NCBI GenBank assembly: GCA_029267445.1 | Contig: JAJUIU010000034.1 | Span: forward strand, 1-38,503 | Length of the DNA: 38,503 bases | Direction: 5' to 3' | Origin: Rhodospirillaceae bacterium | Lineage (GTDB): Bacteria > Pseudomonadota > Alphaproteobacteria > Azospirillales > Azospirillaceae | Shown: positions 11,725 through 38,503 of the stretch, piece after piece | Position numbering within the stretch: the stretch's first letter is position 1 | Layout: each line of letters begins with the position of its first letter | The notes under the pieces: model-generated | Told to the model about the DNA's origin: nothing | Seen by the model: only the letters and a program-made list of their open reading frames with translations | Database searches by the model: none | Position numbers and translations under genes: made by a program

Positions 11725-14700
11725 ATGCCGGACGCCGTCGCCCCGCCCGCCCCGACGCCCAGCGCCTCCACCGCGCTCGCCACCGACCTGGACACGCTGC
11801 GCCACGCGCTCGCCACGGCCAAGCACCGCGACGAGGCGGCGGCGGTGAAGGCGCTGCTGGCCGCCCACGACCTTTCGCCCCACGCCCGCGCCGCGATCGG
11901 CCACAAAGCCGTGGCGGTGGTGGAGGCGGCCCGCGCCCGGCGCGGCGAGCTGGGGCCGCTGGACGCGCTGCTGCAGGAATTCGGCCTGTCGAACCAGGAG
12001 GGTGTCGCCCTCATGTGCATCGCCGAATGCCTGCTGCGCATCGCCGACCCGGACACGGCCGACCAGCTGATCGCCGAGAAGCTGAGCCGGGGCCAGTGGG
12101 ACGCGCATCTGGGCCGCTCCGACAGCGCCTTCGTCAACGCCACCGCCTGGGCGCTGGCCATGACCGGCCGCGTCATGGACCTGGACAAGGAGCAGGTGGG
12201 CGGCGACGCGCCGGGCTTCCTGAAGAAGCTGGTGGCCCGCACGGGCGAGCCGGTGATCCGCGCCGCCATGGGGCAGGCCATGCGCCTGATGGGCGAGCAC
12301 TTCGTGATGGGCCGCACCATCGGGGAGGCGCTGTCCGCCGCCCGCAAGGCGAAGCCGGACGGCACGCTGCACAGCTACGACATGCTGGGCGAGGGGGCGC
12401 GGACCTGGGCGCAGGCCGGCCGGTACCTGGAAGCCTACGCCCATGCCATCGACGCGGTGGGGCGGGAGGCGAAGGGACGGGGGCCGCTGGTGTCGCCCGG
12501 CGTCTCCATCAAGCTGTCCGCCCTGCATCCGCGCTACGTCCAGGCGCAGAGGGCGCGGGTGATGGAGGAGCTGGTGCCGCGCGTGAAGCGGCTGGCGCTC
12601 CAGGCCAAGGGATACGACATCAACCTGACCATCGACGCGGAGGAGGCGGACCGCCTGGACCTCTCGCTGGACCTCATCCAGGCGCTGGCGCTCGATCCGG
12701 ACCTCGCCGGCTGGAACGGGTTCGGCCTCGCCGTCCAGGCCTATCAGAAGCGGGCGCCGCTGCTGATCGACTGGCTGGCGGCGTTGGCCCGCAAGGCCGG
12801 GCGGCGGCTGATGGTGCGGCTGGTCAAGGGCGCCTACTGGGACGCCGAGATCAAGCACAGCCAGATCCAGGGGCACGCCGACTACCCGGTCTACACCCGC
12901 AAGGCGGGGACGGACCTGTCCTATCTCGTCTGCGCCCGGCGGATGCTGGCGGTGCCAGACGCCATCTTCCCGCAGTTCGCCACCCACAACGCCTACACCA
13001 TCGCCGCCATCCTCGACATCGCCGGGGACAACCGGGACCTGGAGTTCCAGCGCCTGCACGGCATGGGCGAGCTGCTGTACGACGCGGCGCGCGACGTGCT
13101 GAAGAAAATGCCCCGGGTGCGGGTCTACGCGCCGGTCGGCACGCATGAGGATCTGTTGCCCTACCTCGTCCGGCGGCTGCTGGAGAACGGGGCGAACAGC
13201 AACTTCATCAACGCCTACATGGACCCGGATGTGCCGGTGGCGCAGGTGGTGGCGGACCCGGTCAGCCTGCTGGACGAACAGGCGGGCCTGCGCCACCCGC
13301 GCATCCCGGTGCCGGCCGATCTGTTCGGTCCCGGCCGCCGCAACGCGCGCGGTGTCGACCTGACCGCACCCGAGCTGACCGGCGACCTGCAGCGCCGGAT
13401 GGAGACCGCGCTGAGGCGGGCCTGGACGGCGGCCCCCATCGTCGGCGGGACGGAGCGGAAGGGGGCCGCCGCCCCCGTGACCGACCCCGCCGACCGGCGC
13501 CGTGCCGTCGGCACCGTGGTGGAGGCCGACGCGGCGCTGGTGGCCGAGGCGATGAAGCGCGCCGCCGCCGCCCAGCCGGAATGGGACAGGGCCGGTGCCG
13601 CCGCCAGGGCGGCCGTGCTGACCCGCACGGCCGACGCGATGGAGGCCGCGCACGCGGAGCTGATGGCGCTGCTGTGCCGCGAGGCCGGCAAGACGCTGCC
13701 CGACGCCGTGGCCGAGGTGCGCGAGGCGGTGGATTTCTGCCGCTACTACGCGGCCCAGGCGCTTGAGCAGTTCGGCGGGCCGGTGCGCCTGCCGGGGCCG
13801 ACGGGGGAGAGCAACGAGCTGCATCTGGCCGGGCGCGGCGTTTTCGCCTGCATCAGCCCCTGGAACTTCCCGCTGGCGATCTTCATCGGACAGGTGGCGG
13901 CCGCACTGGCGGCCGGCAACGCGGTCGTGGCGAAGCCGGCGGAGCAGACGCCGCTGATCGCGGCGGAGGCGGTGCGGCTGCTGCACAAGGCGGGCGTGCC
14001 GGGCGACGTTCTGCACCTGCTGCCCGGCCGGGGCGAAGTGGTCGGCGCGGCGCTGATCGCCGACCGGCATCTGTCCGGCGTGACCTTCACCGGCTCCACC
14101 GAGACCGCGCGGATCATCAACCGGACGCTGGCCGGGCGCGACGGACCGATCCTGCCCCTGATCGCAGAGACCGGCGGGCAGAACGCGATGATCGTCGATT
14201 CGACGGCGCTTCTGGAGCAGGTGGTGGACGACTGCCTGACCTCCGCCTTCCAGTCCGCCGGGCAGCGCTGCTCCGCCATGCGGGTGGTGTTCGTGCAGGA
14301 CACGGTCGCGGACGCGCTGGCGACCATGCTGGCCGGCGCCATGGACCTGCTGACGCTCGGCGATCCGATGCGGCTCGCCACCGATGTCGGCCCGGTGATC
14401 GACGAGGACGCCCGCCGCATCCTCCAGGACCATGCCGCCCGCATGGACCGGGAGGCCCGGCTGATCAAGGCGGTGACGGTCCCGGCCGAGCTGGAGGGCG
14501 GCACCTTCTTCGGCCCCCGGCTTTACGAGATCGACGGGCTGGCCCGGCTGCCGCGCGAGGTGTTCGGTCCGATCCTGCACATGGTGCGCTGGCGGGCCGG
14601 CGAGCTGGACAAGGTGGTCCAGGACATCCAGGCGACCGGGTACGGGCTCACCTTCGGCGTGCACAGCCGCCTGGAGAACCGCGCCCAGGACCTGTTCGCC

Positions 14701-14907
14701 CGGCTGGGGGTCGGCAACACCTACGTGAACCGGAACATGGTGGGGGCCGTGGTCGGGGTGCAGCCCTTCGGAGGGCAGGGACTGTCCGGCACCGGTCCCA
14801 AGGCGGGCGGGCCGCATTATCTGCACCGATTCGCGACCGAGAAGACCCTGACCGTCAACACCACCGCCTTCGGCGGCAACACAACCCTATTGGAACTGGG
14901 GGGATAA
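11725..14907 (+). CDS. putA: Bifunctional proline dehydrogenase / P5C dehydrogenase PutA
   Basis: PutA oxidises proline to glutamate in two steps with FAD and NAD. The 1060-residue protein has an N-terminal helical domain and the FAD-linked proline dehydrogenase barrel (GVSIKLSALHPRY, RLVKGAYWDAEIKHSQ, QFATHNAYTIAAI, about residues 180-490). The aldehyde dehydrogenase domain follows (ISPWNFPLAIFIGQ, Glu815 in AETGGQNA, Cys849 in SAGQRCSA, VNRNMVGAVVGVQPFGGQGLSGTGPKAGG). The ribbon-helix-helix domain of E. coli PutA and its length (1320 residues) are absent, so this is the short type that cannot act as its own repressor. The start ATG follows AGGGA. It diverges from putR, its likely activator. 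Confidence 0.97.
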   Translation: MPDAVAPPAPTPSASTALATDLDTLRHALATAKHRDEAAAVKALLAAHDLSPHARAAIGHKAVAVVEAARARRGELGPLDALLQEFGLSNQEGVALMCIAECLLRIADPDTADQLIAEKLSRGQWDAHLGRSDSAFVNATAWALAMTGRVMDLDKEQVGGDAPGFLKKLVARTGEPVIRAAMGQAMRLMGEHFVMGRTIGEALSAARKAKPDGTLHSYDMLGEGARTWAQAGRYLEAYAHAIDAVGREAKGRGPLVSPGVSIKLSALHPRYVQAQRARVMEELVPRVKRLALQAKGYDINLTIDAEEADRLDLSLDLIQALALDPDLAGWNGFGLAVQAYQKRAPLLIDWLAALARKAGRRLMVRLVKGAYWDAEIKHSQIQGHADYPVYTRKAGTDLSYLVCARRMLAVPDAIFPQFATHNAYTIAAILDIAGDNRDLEFQRLHGMGELLYDAARDVLKKMPRVRVYAPVGTHEDLLPYLVRRLLENGANSNFINAYMDPDVPVAQVVADPVSLLDEQAGLRHPRIPVPADLFGPGRRNARGVDLTAPELTGDLQRRMETALRRAWTAAPIVGGTERKGAAAPVTDPADRRRAVGTVVEADAALVAEAMKRAAAAQPEWDRAGAAARAAVLTRTADAMEAAHAELMALLCREAGKTLPDAVAEVREAVDFCRYYAAQALEQFGGPVRLPGPTGESNELHLAGRGVFACISPWNFPLAIFIGQVAAALAAGNAVVAKPAEQTPLIAAEAVRLLHKAGVPGDVLHLLPGRGEVVGAALIADRHLSGVTFTGSTETARIINRTLAGRDGPILPLIAETGGQNAMIVDSTALLEQVVDDCLTSAFQSAGQRCSAMRVVFVQDTVADALATMLAGAMDLLTLGDPMRLATDVGPVIDEDARRILQDHAARMDREARLIKAVTVPAELEGGTFFGPRLYEIDGLARLPREVFGPILHMVRWRAGELDKVVQDIQATGYGLTFGVHSRLENRAQDLFARLGVGNTYVNRNMVGAVVGVQPFGGQGLSGTGPKAGGPHYLHRFATEKTLTVNTTAFGGNTTLLELGG

Positions 14908-15111
14908 TCCTCTCAATCCCAGGATCATACACTCCCACTCGCCTCGGAATTGCAAGTCCAGTCGTCCACTTGCTGCATTGGTCGTGCGCACGTTGGATTA
15001 GCGCTACCGCATGTCCAAGGGGGTTAAACAAAATTTGCTCCCATGGTATGCAGACATGAGCGGGGCGCATAAACCGGCGCCATGCGTCATGTGAGTCCTT
15101 ATCGGTGCGTT

Positions 15112-15828
15112 ATGGCGGACATCGCCGATGCTCCCCTGGTCCTGATCGTCGAGGATGAGCCCGCCACCCGGGCTCTGCTGGCGAGCTATTTCCACGCGGC
15201 GGGGTTCCTCGTCGCCGAGGCGGAAAGCGGACGCCAGACCCGCGAGGCGATGCTGCGGCAGCCGCCCGACCTCGTGTTGCTGGACATCGAGCTGCCGGAC
15301 TAGGACGGCTTCTCCCTGGCCAAGAGCATCCGGGAGACCTCCAACGTCGGCATCATCATCGTCACGCAGCGGGCCAACGAGGACGACCGGGTCTTCGGGC
15401 TGGAGACCGGTGGCGACGACTACATCACCAAGCCGCCCAACCCGCGTGAGCTTCTGGCACGCGCCCGCAACCTGCTGCGCCGCACGCATCCGACCAAGAT
15501 GCGCCGCGCGGAGGGGGCGGTGCGCCGGTTCGGGGGCTGGACCATGGACCTCGCCCGCCGCCGCCTGATCAGCCCGGAGGGCCAGGAGGTCAGGGTGACG
15601 CGTGGCGAGTTCGAGCTGCTGGCCCTGCTGGTCCGGTCCGGCGGCCGCGTTGTGACCCGCGATCAGCTGATCGACGCGGTCAGCGGCACCGACCGCAACC
15701 CCAACGACCGGACGATCGACGTGCTGGTCAGCCGCCTGCGCCGGAAGATGGGCGACGAGGGGGGCTCCCCCCGCATGATCCTGACCGAGAAGGGGCTGGG
15801 CTACAGGCTCGGCGTCGACGTCGGCTGA
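15112..15828 (+). pseudogene. OmpR/TorR-type response regulator interrupted by an in-frame amber codon
   Basis: One continuous frame encodes a receiver domain and a winged-helix output domain, but codon 64 is TAG (15301-15303). The receiver reads LVLIVEDEPATRALLASYF and phospho-acceptor Asp58 in LVLLDIELPD. It then meets TAG where DEDG or similar is expected, and continues DGFSLAKSIRE... with TGGDDYITKPPNPRELLARARNLL. The output domain has VTRGEFELLALLVRSGGRVVTRDQLIDAV and DVLVSRLRRKMGD. GAG to TAG is one base change; nothing else is broken. No ATG or GTG with a ribosome site lies just after the stop; ATG 15499 or 15544 could give only the DNA-binding part. An upstream in-frame ATG at 15082 is an alternative start. 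It ends inside the convergent kinase gene. Confidence 0.85.
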
Positions 15829-17891
15829 AGCATCGCGGGACCGTCGGCCCCTGTGCTGACGAGCGTCCGCAGATAGTGCTGCAGCGCCTCAACCGACGGA
15901 CCGAACGTGGCGTCGAGGTCCCGCGCGCCGGCGATGGCGCCGGCGTCGTCGCCGGCCTCGGCCAGGCGCTCCGTCTCCCGGCACAGCGCGCCCAGCGGGC
16001 GCAGTCCAACGGTCAGCGCTCCGCTACCGAGCTTGTGGGCGGATTTCGCCAGCGCGTTCAGATCCCGGTCCGCCATCGCCTCGCGCACGGTGGCCAGCGT
16101 CGCGGGAGCCGCCCGCAGGAAGCTCTCGATCACATGGGCGAGGCGGCCGGGCCCCAGCACGCCCAGATGCCCGTCGAGGGTCGGCCGGTCCAGAAGGTCG
16201 GGGCGGGCCGTTCCCGCCCCCGTGGATGCCGGCGTTCCGGTCTGCTCCGGCGGCGGTTCCGCCCGCTTGCCGACCACCTCAGCCAGCACGGCGCGCAGCC
16301 GGTCGCGGTCGACGGGCTTGGCCAGGGCCGTCTGCATGCCGGCGGCCTTGTATCGTGCGGTCTGCGACGGCAGGACATTCGCCGTCATGGCGACGATGGG
16401 CACGGCCGCGGCAACCGGATCGGGAAGGGCGCGGATGCGCCGGGTCGCGGCGGGGCCGCCGAAACCGGGAAGGCGGATGTCCATCAGGATGATGTCGAAC
16501 CCGCCCTTGGCCGCCGCCGCGACCGCGTCGCGGCCGTTGGTCGCCAGGGTCACGCGGTGGCCGTCGCGCTCCAGCAGCGTGCGGGCGAGAAGGGCGCTGA
16601 CCTCGTCATCCTCCACCAGCAGGACGGACAACGCCTGCTTGGCCTGCGCCGGCGTGGCGCTGCCCGAAGAGGGGCGGACGCCGAGATGCGCGTCGATGGC
16701 GCGCAGCATGTCCTCGGCCGACGCCATGATCCGGCGCACATGGTCGCGCTGGTCCGGCGTCAGCGGCGTATCGTCCAGGATCTGCACGAAGCCGAAGATG
16801 CCGTTCAGCGGGGTCCGCAGCTCATGGGCCAGCTCCGCCTGATCGGCGACGCCGCGCCGCTCCGTCAGTTCCACCGCGCGCCTTGCCTCCGCCAGCGCCG
16901 ACTCCGTGCTGCGCAGGCGGGTCGCCTCGGCCAATGCCACCATGCGGAGCGGCCGGTCCCCGACGGTCACGGTGGCGATCCGCGCCACCAGCGTCCGCGA
17001 AGGGCCCGCCGCCGGTGTCAGAACCTGCTCCACCGTCCCCATGGCGGGCAGATCCCGCAGCCAGCGGCCGACAGCCTCGGCCGGCAGTCCGGACAGGATG
17101 TCATCGGCGCCGGCGCTGCGGCCCGTCTCCCGCCCGTCCGCCTCCAGGACCACCATCGGGGTCGGCAGGCCGCGCAGCAGGGCGGCCAGTTCGGCCCTGC
17201 GCCCCTCCCGCGTCTGATCCAGGTCGGTCGCCAAGCGGTCGCGTTCCACAAGTGCTGCGGCGGTCCGGGCCTCCGCCGCGTCGATCGCGGCGGCCAGGGC
17301 GCGCCACTGCAGCTCCCGGACCCGTGCCGCGTAACCGGTCGCGTTCGCAGCCAGACCGGCCAGCAGAACCTCCATCTGCGGCCATGCGCCATTGCCGAAC
17401 TGCGGCATCAGGTGGATCGCCGTGAGCGCGAGCCCCAGGGCCAGCGACTGGCGCGGCGTGCTTGGGAACAGCAGATAGACCAGCAGCAGGATGGACAGCG
17501 CCGCGACATGGGACGCCAGCTCCACGGGCCAGAGCCAGGCGGTGGCCACATGCTGCAGCACCAGCCCCGCCTGCCAGAGCGTCAGCCGGAAGCGCAGCCT
17601 TTCAGGTGCCGGCGGGCCGAGGGTGCTCCAGCCGATCACCAGGGCCGCGATGACAAGCCCGAGCCGCAGCGCCAGCAGCAAGAGCAGCCCGGCGTCCGCC
17701 CCCAGTACGCGCGAATCGACGACTGTGAAACACATCACCACGGCACAGCCGGCGCTCAGCGCGAGGCGCGTCTGACCGACCAGCGCGTCCCACGTGGTCG
17801 TTCCCGGCAGGCTGGACGAAGGATATGTCACGGCGGAGCGGATTCCGGGTGGGGGCGCGGAGACGGTACTGGAAAGCACCGGCGCCATCAT
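15801..17891 (-). CDS. Hybrid sensor histidine kinase-like protein lacking the ATPase domain (HisKA-REC-HPt)
   Basis: A 696-residue membrane protein with about six hydrophobic segments in residues 25-200 and a degenerate PAS-like region. A HisKA helix pair has His356 in AELAHELRTPLNG, a receiver has Asp471 in IILMDIRLPG, and a C-terminal HPt domain has His619 in ALAKSAHKLGSGAL. Only about 60 residues separate His356 from the receiver start (ALSVLLVEDDEV), and no N, G1, F or G2 box is seen, so the catalytic ATP-binding domain is missing. The product could be a phosphatase or a phosphorelay protein fed by another kinase, or a decayed TorS-like kinase. The start is at the tandem ATGs (17889-17891, 17886-17888) after GGGAAG; ATG 17918 is an alternative. 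Its 3' end overlaps the convergent regulator gene by 28 bases. Confidence 0.87.
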   Translation of the reverse strand: MMAPVLSSTVSAPPPGIRSAVTYPSSSLPGTTTWDALVGQTRLALSAGCAVVMCFTVVDSRVLGADAGLLLLLALRLGLVIAALVIGWSTLGPPAPERLRFRLTLWQAGLVLQHVATAWLWPVELASHVAALSILLLVYLLFPSTPRQSLALGLALTAIHLMPQFGNGAWPQMEVLLAGLAANATGYAARVRELQWRALAAAIDAAEARTAAALVERDRLATDLDQTREGRRAELAALLRGLPTPMVVLEADGRETGRSAGADDILSGLPAEAVGRWLRDLPAMGTVEQVLTPAAGPSRTLVARIATVTVGDRPLRMVALAEATRLRSTESALAEARRAVELTERRGVADQAELAHELRTPLNGIFGFVQILDDTPLTPDQRDHVRRIMASAEDMLRAIDAHLGVRPSSGSATPAQAKQALSVLLVEDDEVSALLARTLLERDGHRVTLATNGRDAVAAAAKGGFDIILMDIRLPGFGGPAATRRIRALPDPVAAAVPIVAMTANVLPSQTARYKAAGMQTALAKPVDRDRLRAVLAEVVGKRAEPPPEQTGTPASTGAGTARPDLLDRPTLDGHLGVLGPGRLAHVIESFLRAAPATLATVREAMADRDLNALAKSAHKLGSGALTVGLRPLGALCRETERLAEAGDDAGAIAGARDLDATFGPSVEALQHYLRTLVSTGADGPAMLQPTSTPSL

Positions 17892-18012
17892 ATACTTCCC
17901 AAATAAATCGCGGTCCATGCGGCCGGCACTTGCCCTTATGCTGCCGCGGACGCGCCGCATCATGCGGGTCGCCCGATGAAGGGGCGTCCGTGCCGGTTCC
18001 AGGAGTCCGTCG

Positions 18013-18861
18013 ATGCAGTCCTCCTCCCGCGTTCCCCCGTGCCGCCGTTCCCGGGTGGCGGGATTCGCCATGGCCCTGCTCCTGACCGCGGCGCCCGTGG
18101 CAGCCACCGCCCAAACTGGGGGTGACGAACAGCCGAACGGCGCCACCATCCAGTGGGCGCAGCAGATCCTGGACGATCAGGGCTTCTACCAGGGACGGGC
18201 GCATGGCCGGATGGATGCCGCCACGGCCGCCGCCATCACCGCCTATCAGCGCAAGAACGGCCTGAAGCCGACCGGGCGGCTGGACCGCGCCACCATCGAC
18301 AAGATGCTGGAGACGCGCGAGCCGCCCAAGACCGTGGGCAACCTCGCCGATCCGAACAGCCGCGCGCGCTCGAGCGGGCCGATGCTGCGGGAGGAGGAGG
18401 TCCGTCCCCAGGCGGCCCCGTCCGCGCCGGGTGTCGAGCGTGGCGAGGGGGCCGAACAGTCGACCCTGGGCGGCCCGGTGTCACCCGGTGCCGCGCCCGG
18501 CCCGCCCGCCCCGGCGGCGCGCCCGGCGGCCCGGGTGGAGGCGCCTGCGGGTGGCGAGGGCGCGCAGCCCACGGCGGCCCCGCGCAGCAGTGTTGCCGTG
18601 GAGGGCGGGGAGTCGGCCGGGACCGACCTGCGCGCGCTGCTTCCGATGAATGTCGTCCGGTACGCGTTGCTGGGCATCGTCGGCGTCATCGTGCTGGGCA
18701 TGGCCTTCGTCTGGTGGTCGGGCGGGCGCCGGTCGCGGTCCCCCGCGAAGACCCGGCGCGCCGCGCCGGCGGCGCCGGGCAGGGCCGAGCCCACGCTTGG
18801 CAGGAAGGAACCGGGCCTGAGGGCGGACCCAGGCGGCGGGCTGCGCGCCGGCCGCCGCTGA
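18013..18861 (+). CDS. Membrane-anchored peptidoglycan-binding domain protein
   Basis: The 282-residue protein starts with a signal-like segment (RVAGFAMALLLTAAPVAATAQ). A PG_binding_1 domain follows at about residues 50-100 (WAQQILDDQGFYQGRAHGRMDAATAAAITAYQRKNGLKPTGRLDRATIDKML), then about 110 residues of Pro/Ala/Gly-rich linker. A transmembrane helix (YALLGIVGVIVLGMAFVWW, near residue 220) and an Arg-rich tail end it. With signal peptide, periplasmic wall-binding domain and a tail on the other side, it may tether the membrane to the wall or sense it. The ribosome site AGGAG lies 7 bases before ATG. It diverges from the kinase-like gene. No enzymatic domain is present. Confidence 0.8.
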   Translation: MQSSSRVPPCRRSRVAGFAMALLLTAAPVAATAQTGGDEQPNGATIQWAQQILDDQGFYQGRAHGRMDAATAAAITAYQRKNGLKPTGRLDRATIDKMLETREPPKTVGNLADPNSRARSSGPMLREEEVRPQAAPSAPGVERGEGAEQSTLGGPVSPGAAPGPPAPAARPAARVEAPAGGEGAQPTAAPRSSVAVEGGESAGTDLRALLPMNVVRYALLGIVGVIVLGMAFVWWSGGRRSRSPAKTRRAAPAAPGRAEPTLGRKEPGLRADPGGGLRAGRR

Positions 18862-18920: not shown

Positions 18921-19036
18921 AACGCCTGACAACGAAATCGACCCCGGCACGGCTGGGGAAATAAAATGTCGCCAACGGATAAGGGTCCGTGGCGCAGCCG
19001 ATCCGGCGCGCGGGGCCCAACGGCAGGAGACGACCG

Positions 19037-20143
19037 ATGGCGGATGGCGCGGTGACCGGAAACGTTTTCGGCGCGACGGATTTCGACGATCACGAGCTTG
19101 TTGTGTTCGGCCGCGACAAGGACAGCGGCCTGAAGGCGATCGTCGCGGTGCATGACACGGCACTCGGCCCCGCCTGCGGTGGCTGCCGCATGTGGCCCTA
19201 CGCGACCGAGGCGGAGGCGGTGCGCGACGTGCTGCGGCTGTCGCGCGGCATGAGCTACAAGAACGCCATGGCAGGCCTCCCCCTCGGCGGGGGCAAGTCC
19301 GTTATCATCGGCGACAGCCGGACGGGCAAGAGCGAGGCTCTGCTGCGCGCCTTCGGCCGGGTGGTGGACAGCCTCGGCGGCCGCTACATCGCGGCGGAGG
19401 ATGTCGGGATCACGGTCGCAGACGTCCATGTCATGGGCCAGGAGACCCGTCACGTGGCCGGCCTGAACAAGGGCCATGACGCCAGCGGCGACCCGTCGCC
19501 CTTCACCGCCTACGGCGTCTATCTCGGGATCAAGGCCGCCGTCCGGCACAAGCTTGGTGCCGAATCCCTGAAGGGCGTGCGCGTCGCCGTGCAGGGCCTG
19601 GGGAATGTCGGCGGGCATCTGGTCCGGCGGCTGGCGGATGAGGGGGCCGTGCTGACGGTCAGCGACATCCATGCCGAAACGGTGGCGCGGGTCGTCGACG
19701 CGTGCGGCGCCACGGCGGTCGATCCGGCCCGCATCCACGCGGCGGACGTCGACGTCTTCGCCCCGTGCGCCCTGGGTGCCGTCATCAATCCGGAAAGCCT
19801 GGACGCGCTGAAGGCCGGCATCGTCGCGGGCGGTGCGAACAACCAGCTCTCCACCGACGCGATGGGGGCGGCGCTGCGGCAGCGCGGCGTGCTCTACGCC
19901 CCGGATTACGTCATCAACGCCGGCGGCATCATCAACGTGGCCGGCGAGGTGCTGCACGGCTACGACCGCGCCGAGGTGCTGCGCCAGGTGGAGCGCATCC
20001 CGGCGACGCTGACGGACATCTTCCGCCGGGCGGAGCGGGAGGATCGTCCCACCAGCGCCATCGCCGACGAGATGGCGCGCGAGCGGCTGGCCGCGGCGCG
20101 GGCGGCGAAGCGCAACCCGGCCCTGGCGCGGGTGGCGGAGTAG
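19037..20143 (+). CDS. Leu/Val/Phe dehydrogenase family (amino acid dehydrogenase)
   Basis: This family reversibly deaminates branched-chain or aromatic amino acids with NAD. The 368-residue protein has the catalytic region GPACGGCRMWPYATEAEAVRDVLRLSRGMSYKNAMAGLPLGGGKSVI with Lys75 and Lys87, AAEDVGITVADVHVMGQETRHVAGL, and the Rossmann motif VAVQGLGNVGGHLVRRLAD. NADH-binding DVDVFAPCALGAVIN and GGANNQL, and VINAGGIINVAGE complete it. It matches leucine dehydrogenase layout; substrate choice among Leu, Val and Phe cannot be read off. The ATG at 19037 has an AGGAG site 8 bases upstream; an earlier in-frame start at 18989 is less likely. The topoisomerase gene follows after 68 bases on the same strand. 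Confidence 0.92.
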   Translation: MADGAVTGNVFGATDFDDHELVVFGRDKDSGLKAIVAVHDTALGPACGGCRMWPYATEAEAVRDVLRLSRGMSYKNAMAGLPLGGGKSVIIGDSRTGKSEALLRAFGRVVDSLGGRYIAAEDVGITVADVHVMGQETRHVAGLNKGHDASGDPSPFTAYGVYLGIKAAVRHKLGAESLKGVRVAVQGLGNVGGHLVRRLADEGAVLTVSDIHAETVARVVDACGATAVDPARIHAADVDVFAPCALGAVINPESLDALKAGIVAGGANNQLSTDAMGAALRQRGVLYAPDYVINAGGIINVAGEVLHGYDRAEVLRQVERIPATLTDIFRRAEREDRPTSAIADEMARERLAAARAAKRNPALARVAE

Positions 20144-36972: not shown

Positions 36973-37064
36973 CGCGTTATCCACCTGTTAAGTGTTGTAA
37001 AGCCATGCTCTGGGGCCACAGTCTAGCGTCGCGCCACGGCGGAAGGCAGGCAAGGGGGATGGTC

Positions 37065-37706
37065 ATGGGTGTCACTGGTGATGCGACCCTGGGCGTCCGC
37101 GCGATCGAGCTGCTCTGCTCGCGGCTCTGCCATGATCTCGTCAGCCCCGTTTCCGCCATCAGCAACGGCGTGGAGCTGCTTGAGGAGAGCGGCGTCGACA
37201 TGTCCGACGACGCCATGCAGCTCATCGCCCAAAGCGCCGAGATCGCCTCCCGACGGCTCAAGCTGTTCCGCATGGCCTTCGGTGCGGCGGGCGGACAGGA
37301 CGAGGTCCGGCTGGACGATGTCCGGGCGCTGGTCGACGGCTGGTTCCTGGGTGGGAAGGTCCAGGTGCGCTGGGATGTCGACAGCCTCGACGGCGCGCCG
37401 CGCGGACTTCCCAAGATGATGATGGTGGCCGCCCTGCTGTGCGACGAATCCCTGCCGCTGGGCGGGACCCTGCGCGTGACGGGCCGGGCCGAAGCCGTGG
37501 AATTGGCCGCCGCCGGCCACCGCTGCGCCATCCGGCCGGAGGCGCGGGACGTGCTGTCGGGCCGGGTCGGCGAAGAGGATCTGACCCCGCGCAGCGCCGT
37601 CGCCTACGTCGCCCTGCGCACGGCGGCCCATTACGGCCTGTCGCTCGACATCCGTGAACCGGGGCTGGACCTGCTCTCCATCCACGTCGCCGCGACGACC
37701 GCCTGA
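37065..37706 (+). CDS. chpT: ChpT histidine phosphotransferase
   Basis: ChpT passes phosphate from the hybrid kinase CckA to CtrA and CpdR, which set cell-cycle and motility programs in alphaproteobacteria. The 213-residue protein has the phospho-histidine His23 in LCSRLCHDLVSPVSAISNGVELLEE, the ChpT N-terminal helical bundle, and an ATPase-like C-terminal domain that no longer binds ATP (family PF10090-type). The ATG at 37065 has a GGGGG site 7 bases upstream; an ATG at 37059 is too close to that site. It is followed, after 184 bases, by cheA on the same strand, which fits the link between the CtrA pathway and chemotaxis/motility in this group. Confidence 0.92.
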   Translation: MGVTGDATLGVRAIELLCSRLCHDLVSPVSAISNGVELLEESGVDMSDDAMQLIAQSAEIASRRLKLFRMAFGAAGGQDEVRLDDVRALVDGWFLGGKVQVRWDVDSLDGAPRGLPKMMMVAALLCDESLPLGGTLRVTGRAEAVELAAAGHRCAIRPEARDVLSGRVGEEDLTPRSAVAYVALRTAAHYGLSLDIREPGLDLLSIHVAATTA

Positions 37707-37890: not shown

Positions 37891-38503
37891 ATGGACGATC
37901 TGCTGAGTGAATTCCTCACCGAGACGAACGAGAACCTTTCGGTGCTCGACGTCGAGCTGGTCCGGTTGGAGCAGAACCCCAACGATCCGGGCCTGCTCAG
38001 CAACATCTTCCGCCTCGTCCACACCATCAAGGGCACCTGCGGCTTCCTCGGCCTGCCCCGCCTGGAATCGGTCGCCCATGCGGCCGAGAACGTGCTTGGC
38101 CGCTTCCGCGACGGCGAACTGGAGGTGACGCCCTACGCGGTGTCACTGATCCTGGAATCCCTGGACACGATCAAGGGCATCCTCTCCGTCCTGGAGAAGA
38201 CGGAATCGGAACCCGCGGGCGACGACCGCGACCTGATCGAGCGCCTGAACGCGATGGCGGAGGGCCGCGAGCTGCCGAAGGCGGGGGCTGCCGCCCAGGC
38301 CACCCCCGCTGCCGCCCCCGTCGAGGAGGCGCCGGCCGCCGAACCGGAAGCGGATGAGTTCGGCTTCGTGCCGGTTCCGGCGAAGAAGGAGGTGCTCGCC
38401 GCCTCGGCCGCCGCACCCGGCCTGGCCCAGGCCCGCGCCGACGCCCCGGGGGCCGCGGCGGCACCGCCGGCCCCGGCGCCCGAGCCTCCGCCGCCGGCTC
38501 CCG
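37891..38503 (+). CDS. cheA: Chemotaxis histidine kinase CheA, N-terminal part (3' end outside window)
   Basis: The frame is open to the right edge (about 204 residues). It starts MDDLLSEFLTETNENLSVLDVEL and reaches the P1 (HPt) domain with phospho-acceptor His44 in IFRLVHTIKGTCGFLGLPRLE, then VAHAAENVLGRFRDGEL. After the P1 domain, from about residue 130, comes a long Pro/Ala/Glu-rich linker; the P2-P5 domains lie beyond the window. CheA receives signals from chemoreceptors and phosphorylates CheY and CheB. The start ATG at 37891 has only a weak GGGG site. The 184-base region before it shows no clear sigma54 or sigma28 element. Confidence 0.93.
   Translation, partial: MDDLLSEFLTETNENLSVLDVELVRLEQNPNDPGLLSNIFRLVHTIKGTCGFLGLPRLESVAHAAENVLGRFRDGELEVTPYAVSLILESLDTIKGILSVLEKTESEPAGDDRDLIERLNAMAEGRELPKAGAAAQATPAAAPVEEAPAAEPEADEFGFVPVPAKKEVLAASAAAPGLAQARADAPGAAAAPPAPAPEPPPPAP

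Follow-up and report, generated by a model that had tools for sequence, protein, structure and literature searches.

We describe a gene of Rhodospirillaceae bacterium (GenBank assembly GCA_029267445.1) that lies in a stretch of 38,503 nucleotides of contig JAJUIU010000034.1, hereafter the window. The gene encodes a protein resembling a hybrid histidine kinase without an ATPase domain, and it converges on a gene for an OmpR/TorR-type response regulator (Table 1). A preliminary description, made from the letters alone, gave its coordinates, strand and frame correctly, and the open frame has 696 codons. The ATG at 17891 is taken as the start, because the in-frame start at 18149 would enter the divergent neighbour. 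A scan of positions 14900-18200 returned no promoter and no terminator. The family is read as Azospirillaceae from named relatives; codes such as G002, L090 and C65 are our own labels for genomes, loci and contigs.

Table 1. Features of the locus in window coordinates (HPt, histidine phosphotransfer domain; pLDDT, predicted local distance difference test score of the AlphaFold2 model)
Feature	Position	Strand	Basis or remark
ATPase-less hybrid-kinase-like protein, 696 residues: membrane helices, PAS-like stretch, HisKA, receiver, HPt	15801..17891	-	Pfam and AlphaFold2
Predicted membrane helices, about residues 32-200	17292..17798	-	Model helices with pLDDT mostly 50-67; hydropathy peaks only near 45-86 and 127-138
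PAS-like stretch, about residues 230-335	16887..17204	-	Aligns with the PAS-bearing region of kinase L090; no Pfam match; pLDDT <50 over much of it
HisKA, residues 352-400, phospho-acceptor His356	16692..16838	-	Pfam PF00512, 2.1e-12
Short linker, residues 401-422, at the HATPase_c position of complete kinases	16626..16691	-	Pfam, model, control spacing
Receiver (Response_reg PF00072), residues 423-536, Asp471	16284..16625	-	Pfam 1.3e-21, model
HPt (PF01627), residues 587-652, His619	15933..16133	-	Pfam 1.3e-10, model
OmpR/TorR-type response regulator, receiver and Trans_reg_C, in-frame TAG within the receiver	15112..15828	+	Convergent; 28-base overlap with the end of the partner gene
putA (proline dehydrogenase / aldehyde dehydrogenase)	11755..14904	+	Conserved neighbour
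Peptidoglycan-binding-domain protein	18013..18861	+	Conserved neighbour
Glu/Leu/Phe/Val dehydrogenase	18989..20143	+	Conserved neighbour

The three phospho-accepting residues described as intact are exactly placed in Pfam-matched domains, within the motifs ELAHELRTP (His356), ILMDIRLPG (Asp471) and KSAHKLGSG (His619). No HATPase family is listed among the Pfam matches of the protein up to E 1. The AlphaFold2 model, computed from eight sequences, has a mean pLDDT of 68 and a predicted template modelling score of 0.33. The receiver and the HPt mostly exceed pLDDT 90, and the membrane and PAS-like parts are poor. A helical hairpin (315-373/379-402) is modelled at moderate confidence (pLDDT mostly 65-85) and is followed by a low-confidence linker; the model contains no alpha/beta ATPase fold between this hairpin and the receiver. 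Pfam and the model both bear out the earlier claim that the ATPase domain is missing and that the loss is clean and in frame. The “about 60 residues” said to separate HisKA from the receiver hold if counted from His356; only 22 separate the HisKA match, which ends at 400, from the receiver match, which starts at 423. A divergent HATPase_c had been named as the finding that could overturn the claim, and Pfam detects none in the gap. A relic of the domain is rejected as well, given a gap of only 22 residues with neither a Pfam match nor a modelled fold. Since there is no ATPase domain, the protein should be unable to phosphorylate itself, as had been concluded.

Within this genome, Pfam lists 59 HATPase_c matches, and 41 HisKA matches exceed its cut-off. 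Of these HisKA matches, 39 are followed by HATPase_c on the same strand, 124-172 nt downstream. The two exceptions are the window gene and G000:C65:53440-53640. Two HisKA matches below the cut-off are not counted: C160:50983, which adjoins HATPase_c, and C25:19989, which has none listed beside it. The exception on C65 reads SEEVRVPLN at the H-box position and has no HATPase match at E 0.001. A degenerate kinase of 487 residues on that contig (L133:6098-7561), in which Glu replaces the H-box His and Pfam matches no HATPase, stands near genes that we label DivK-like, PleD-like and apparent aspartyl-tRNA synthetase.

As to its class, the protein has the HisKA His, the receiver Asp and the HPt His of a TorS-type hybrid histidine kinase, in the same order, and its OmpR-type regulator is convergent, as in three related pairs with a TorS sensor. 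It differs in having neither HATPase_c nor the TorS sensor domain (PF21689, by Pfam), and is no kinase by itself. Judged by its domain content, it does not qualify as a histidine kinase, since the ATPase is missing, and belongs to the loose class “HisKA, no HATPase”, which its domains match. A phosphotransfer protein is defined as having HPt or HisKA with no receiver (REC) and no HATPase (PMC4618731). The window protein, with its receiver, falls outside this definition, and the three HPt-only orthologues scanned (L063, L086, L087) fall within it. The C-terminal domain of ChpT (PF10090) is not matched in the window protein.

Of 82 genomes in the family, 20 (counting G002 and the window) encode a regulator with at least 86% identity to the G002 query; an order-level search gave the same 82 genomes. 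A scan of named genomes yielded 15 loci at 86-90% identity, under the names Nitrospirillum, Niveispirillum, Oleisolibacter albus and Aerophototrophica crusticola and in records labelled Azospirillum sp. and alpha proteobacterium AAP38. These loci were assigned to our genome labels through their contig coordinates. The genus code of the window is represented by one genome in the sets searched. The regulator adjoins putA in all 20 genomes and the partner gene in 17; on the far side of the partner, the stretches fetched include the peptidoglycan-binding gene in 17 genomes and, after it, the dehydrogenase gene in 14. In G018, G093 and G094 the partner is unlinked from the regulator (67-70% identity to the G011 partner) and still flanked by the peptidoglycan-binding protein and dehydrogenase genes, the trio having been relocated together. 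A total loss of the partner in three Niveispirillum-type genomes is accordingly rejected, as the gene moved along with its neighbours. In these genomes the vacated site beside putA and the regulator holds a gene that we label SpoVR-like (L137-L139 versus L072, L074, L075). Neither the regulator nor a close partner was found in G092, which shares the genus code of the genomes with the moved partner (93% complete, 860 contigs).

The partner itself is reduced to different degrees in different genera, a gradation not visible from the window. The HisKA-REC-HPt form occurs in the window and in Aerophototrophica (2/20), with H-boxes AHELRTPLNG and AHDLRTPLNG. G002 and Oleisolibacter have REC-HPt with the Asp kept. 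Eight Niveispirillum-type genomes have a pseudo-receiver with HPt, the acceptor Asp being Ser, Gly or Ala in 8/8 orthologues (L068, L071, L073, L077, L088, L137, L138, L139). Seven Nitrospirillum-type genomes and G012 have the HPt only. The HPt histidine is thus kept in 20/20 partners, the receiver Asp in 4/20 (receiver degenerate in eight, absent in eight) and HisKA in 2/20. Eleven of the 20 partners, the window protein and ten orthologues, were scanned with Pfam, and none gave an HATPase match; the remaining nine were judged by alignment, length and motifs.

These comparisons bear on the possibility that the domain was dropped by a sequencing or annotation artefact, such as an assembly deletion. 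The genome is indeed a draft of 174 contigs, but independent genomes carry the same gene without the domain, and the Aerophototrophica HisKA too ends at the same helix before the receiver, with a longer linker. We consider an artefact barely conceivable; an annotation gap, also named beforehand as a finding that could overturn the claim, and an assembly deletion are both rejected, because the absence is common to the relatives.

A degenerate HisKA in the Niveispirillum-type proteins is only suggested. Against a profile of 12 HisKA sequences, the local score is 17.1 (100 column shuffles: mean 9.8, maximum 19.5) and the global score 12.1 (shuffle mean 3.7, maximum 16.1). A profile of two HisKA sequences gives 23.9, a score that has no shuffle control. 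The AlphaFold2 model of a Niveispirillum orthologue has a helical hairpin (151-178/182-205) in this region.

Outside the clade, related pairs contain complete kinases. There, the ten highest-ranking regulator matches come from eight genomes of genus code g11, which we take to be Azospirillum, and in 10/10 the convergent partner has HATPase_c; PF21689 is present in 3/10 of these kinases. The regulator nearest to the clade is that of L090 (supports 92/87, on a long branch of 0.87), and its partner is PAS-HisKA-HATPase-REC-HPt. The window protein aligns with this partner on both sides of the missing stretch, which spans residues 400 to 421 in the former and 357 to 553 in the latter.

The putA tree was rooted and comprised 19 clade members and four outgroups. 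It pairs the window with G002, which has a long branch (85/72), and G012 with Nitrospirillum (86/77); a further group joins Aerophototrophica to Oleisolibacter and Niveispirillum (100/99). Since the two members with HisKA are in separate branches of this tree, HisKA-REC-HPt without the ATPase is inferred to be the ancestral form. The simplest account from these sequences would be a single loss of the ATPase before the split, with the other parts lost separately later. HisKA would have been lost at least three times (in G002, in the Nitrospirillum line, and in Oleisolibacter with Niveispirillum), the receiver or its Asp at least twice, and the HPt not at all. The 11 outgroup putA loci fetched have no such regulator within 1.5 kb, and therefore the regulator-partner pair probably reached putA on the stem of the clade.

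The window and Aerophototrophica proteins are identical at 25/50 residues of HisKA, 77/118 of the receiver, 50/100 of the HPt and 29/70 of the membrane stretch; chance pairing gives 8-11% (8% for HisKA). Codon positions 1 and 2 differ less often than position 3 in the receiver (54/236 versus 56/118, Fisher p 5.2e-06) and in the HPt (56/200 versus 58/100, p 6.9e-07). The corresponding counts are 28/100 versus 21/50 in HisKA (p 0.098) and 64/140 versus 32/70 in the membrane stretch, which has no codon-position bias (p 1). The ratio of nonsynonymous to synonymous rates (dN/dS, by NG86) was judged unreliable, third positions being about 90% guanine and cytosine.

The internal stop in the regulator, which the preliminary description does not mention, occurs in one of the 20 orthologous copies, that of the window. 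This copy is otherwise 91% identical to that of G002, and its branch length is ordinary (0.037; 0.038 for G002); therefore the break, if real, is recent. Otherwise the stop is an assembly error. Separately, the regulator of Nitrospirillum amazonense BR 11880 (L076:6057) was recovered only from query residue 20 on, and its start may be frameshifted.

One could read the stop codon, together with the weakly conserved and codon-unbiased membrane stretch, as signs of a dying two-component system in which the ATPase was lost first and the regulator is now broken. We regard such decay as very unlikely: the frame is open over 696 codons, the receiver and the HPt are strongly constrained, the regulator is well preserved apart from a break that would be recent, and the missing ATPase is common to the relatives scanned.

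The explanation that we find reasonably probable is that of a former TorS-type hybrid kinase whose ATPase was lost in the clade ancestor and which now acts at the membrane, transferring phosphate in partnership with the convergent regulator. A phosphotransfer role is favoured because the HPt is kept in every lineage and, in 17 of 20 genomes, is encoded next to a regulator that is itself strongly conserved. The ATPase domain would have disappeared in the ancestor of this part of the family, presumably in a single event. A hybrid kinase elsewhere in the cell would charge Asp471 or His619, and His619 would pass the phosphoryl group to the Asp of the regulator. The HisKA hairpin would hold the dimer and may still dock kinases. 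The roles initially offered were a phosphatase, a relay fed by another kinase, or a decoy; of these, a relay through the HPt is favoured, its histidine being the sole phospho-site kept throughout, and a phosphatase sink would use the same parts.

As for the donor, the PF01627 matches listed in the genome number six: a CheA-like start, a stand-alone protein, a LuxU-like protein, two hybrid kinases and the window gene (CheA and LuxU are our labels). C126:13759-14484 aligns through the HPt region with no Pfam match, and Pfam may miss further HPts; the ChpT-like protein of the window belongs to a family other than PF01627. Contigs C153, C103, C72 and C24 encode at least four hybrid kinases with a receiver and without an HPt matched by Pfam; these are candidate donors and could use the HPt of the window gene.

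In the opposite direction, the protein may be a phosphate sink and the phosphatase of its regulator: a reverse phosphorelay from His619 to Asp471 and on to water would discharge a regulator charged by other kinases or small phosphodonors. The intact Asp and His that persist without HisKA in G002 and Oleisolibacter are all that a sink needs. Reverse phosphorelay reportedly operates in the Arc system, a finding attributed to Georgellis (1998). Phosphatase activity has also been suggested for archaeal HisKA-only proteins (PMC5847659). Nevertheless, in 16 of 20 genomes the receiver has lost its Asp or is absent and the HPt stays, and a bare HPt alone cannot complete the sink; we consider this role unlikely.

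Still less likely, in our view, is charging of HisKA in trans, where the ATPase of another kinase would phosphorylate His356 across the dimer and the two would form a split kinase with a full His-Asp-His relay. His356 and the H-box are kept without an ATPase in the gene in two members on different putA branches, and a split kinase of another type is described in Synechocystis, with the HPt in Hik36 and the catalytic domain in Hik43 (PMC7656254). HisKA, however, remains in only 2/20 partners, and no dedicated ATPase partner was found. It is likewise rather improbable that the gene has been part of a stable split kinase, with HisKA phosphorylated in trans, since the split between the window and Aerophototrophica, and that the relatives were then reduced stepwise to the HPt alone. 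If true, this would be a visible path from a hybrid kinase to a stand-alone phosphotransfer protein.

Several observations weigh against the phosphotransfer partner that we prefer. No donor kinase was identified, and a sink would account for a large part of the conservation seen. In this genome, the in-frame TAG in the regulator may leave the system without its immediate output. HisKA is as similar between the two members as the HPt, yet HisKA by itself does not reach significance in the codon-position test. In the regulator tree, G012 branches off before all the rest (95/97), and the window, G002 and Aerophototrophica are left without a resolved order; this tree disagrees with the putA tree, and therefore the separation of the HisKA-bearing members and the order of events depend on putA, with its moderate supports. 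Finally, the pairs with HATPase are not beside putA in the stretches fetched, and no such regulator lies within 1.5 kb of putA in 11/11 outgroup loci fetched. The complete ancestor is therefore deduced from relatives rather than from an ortholog at this locus.

Among known systems, ChpT is likewise a kinase-derived phosphotransfer protein, and RcsD a kinase-derived membrane protein working through its HPt. In RcsD a kinase-like region remains and the acceptor His is missing; in the window protein the acceptor remains and the ATPase is missing. ChpT-like proteins have the PF10090 C-terminal domain, and the window protein has nothing at the ATPase place. GacS (used by LadS) and SypF (used by HahK/RscS) are close in that the HPt alone suffices to relay the phosphate of another kinase to a regulator. 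Of GacS, LadS requires the HPt and no other domain (PMC4866733). In a sypF deletion strain, which by itself still forms weaker biofilms, partly via LuxU, the SypF HPt on its own restores biofilm formation fully (PMC12369376). Both keep kinase parts of their own, unlike the window gene with its missing ATPase: GacS autophosphorylates (PMC4866733) and SypF is called a sensor kinase (PMC12369376).

Proteins with HisKA and no HATPase are already known as a class. P2CS treats HisKA-alone or HATPase-alone proteins as probable incomplete kinases (PMC2716373), Archaeoglobus fulgidus has been noted to possess a family lacking HATPase (PMC1183210), and archaeal HisKA-only proteins are discussed as possible acceptors or phosphatases (PMC5847659), where REC-HisKA regulators are described as not experimentally studied. 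A survey of Azospirillum retained HisKA-only transmitters if they stood beside another two-component gene (PMC4618731), and in myxobacteria orthologous two-component proteins are reported to have gained and lost domains (PMC4603909). The window protein shares with the possible incomplete kinases (P2CS; PMC5847659) a HisKA with its His and no recognisable HATPase; it differs in being bacterial, in having a receiver and an HPt, in standing beside a regulator and in belonging to a reduction series at one locus. The graded series at one locus is what is new. The searches of open-access literature turned up no report of this locus and no paper joining Azospirillaceae, a response regulator and HPt.

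Some phosphotransfer proteins are thought to be kinase-derived, and intermediate stages are rarely seen. Here, a locus whose regulator is 86-91% identical to the G002 copy presents, across neighbouring genera, intermediates without the ATPase, pseudo-receivers and HPts that stand alone, and the complete kinases of related pairs elsewhere provide the contrast. It becomes testable which part of a hybrid kinase drops first and what feeds the HPt once the kinase is gone. Such genes are also easily misnamed “hybrid histidine kinase”.

Elsewhere in the window, the ChpT-like histidine phosphotransferase (PF10090) is encoded at 37005-37706 (+). Immediately after it begins the gene of a CheA-like protein, with an HPt at 37897-38175, which runs off the window end.

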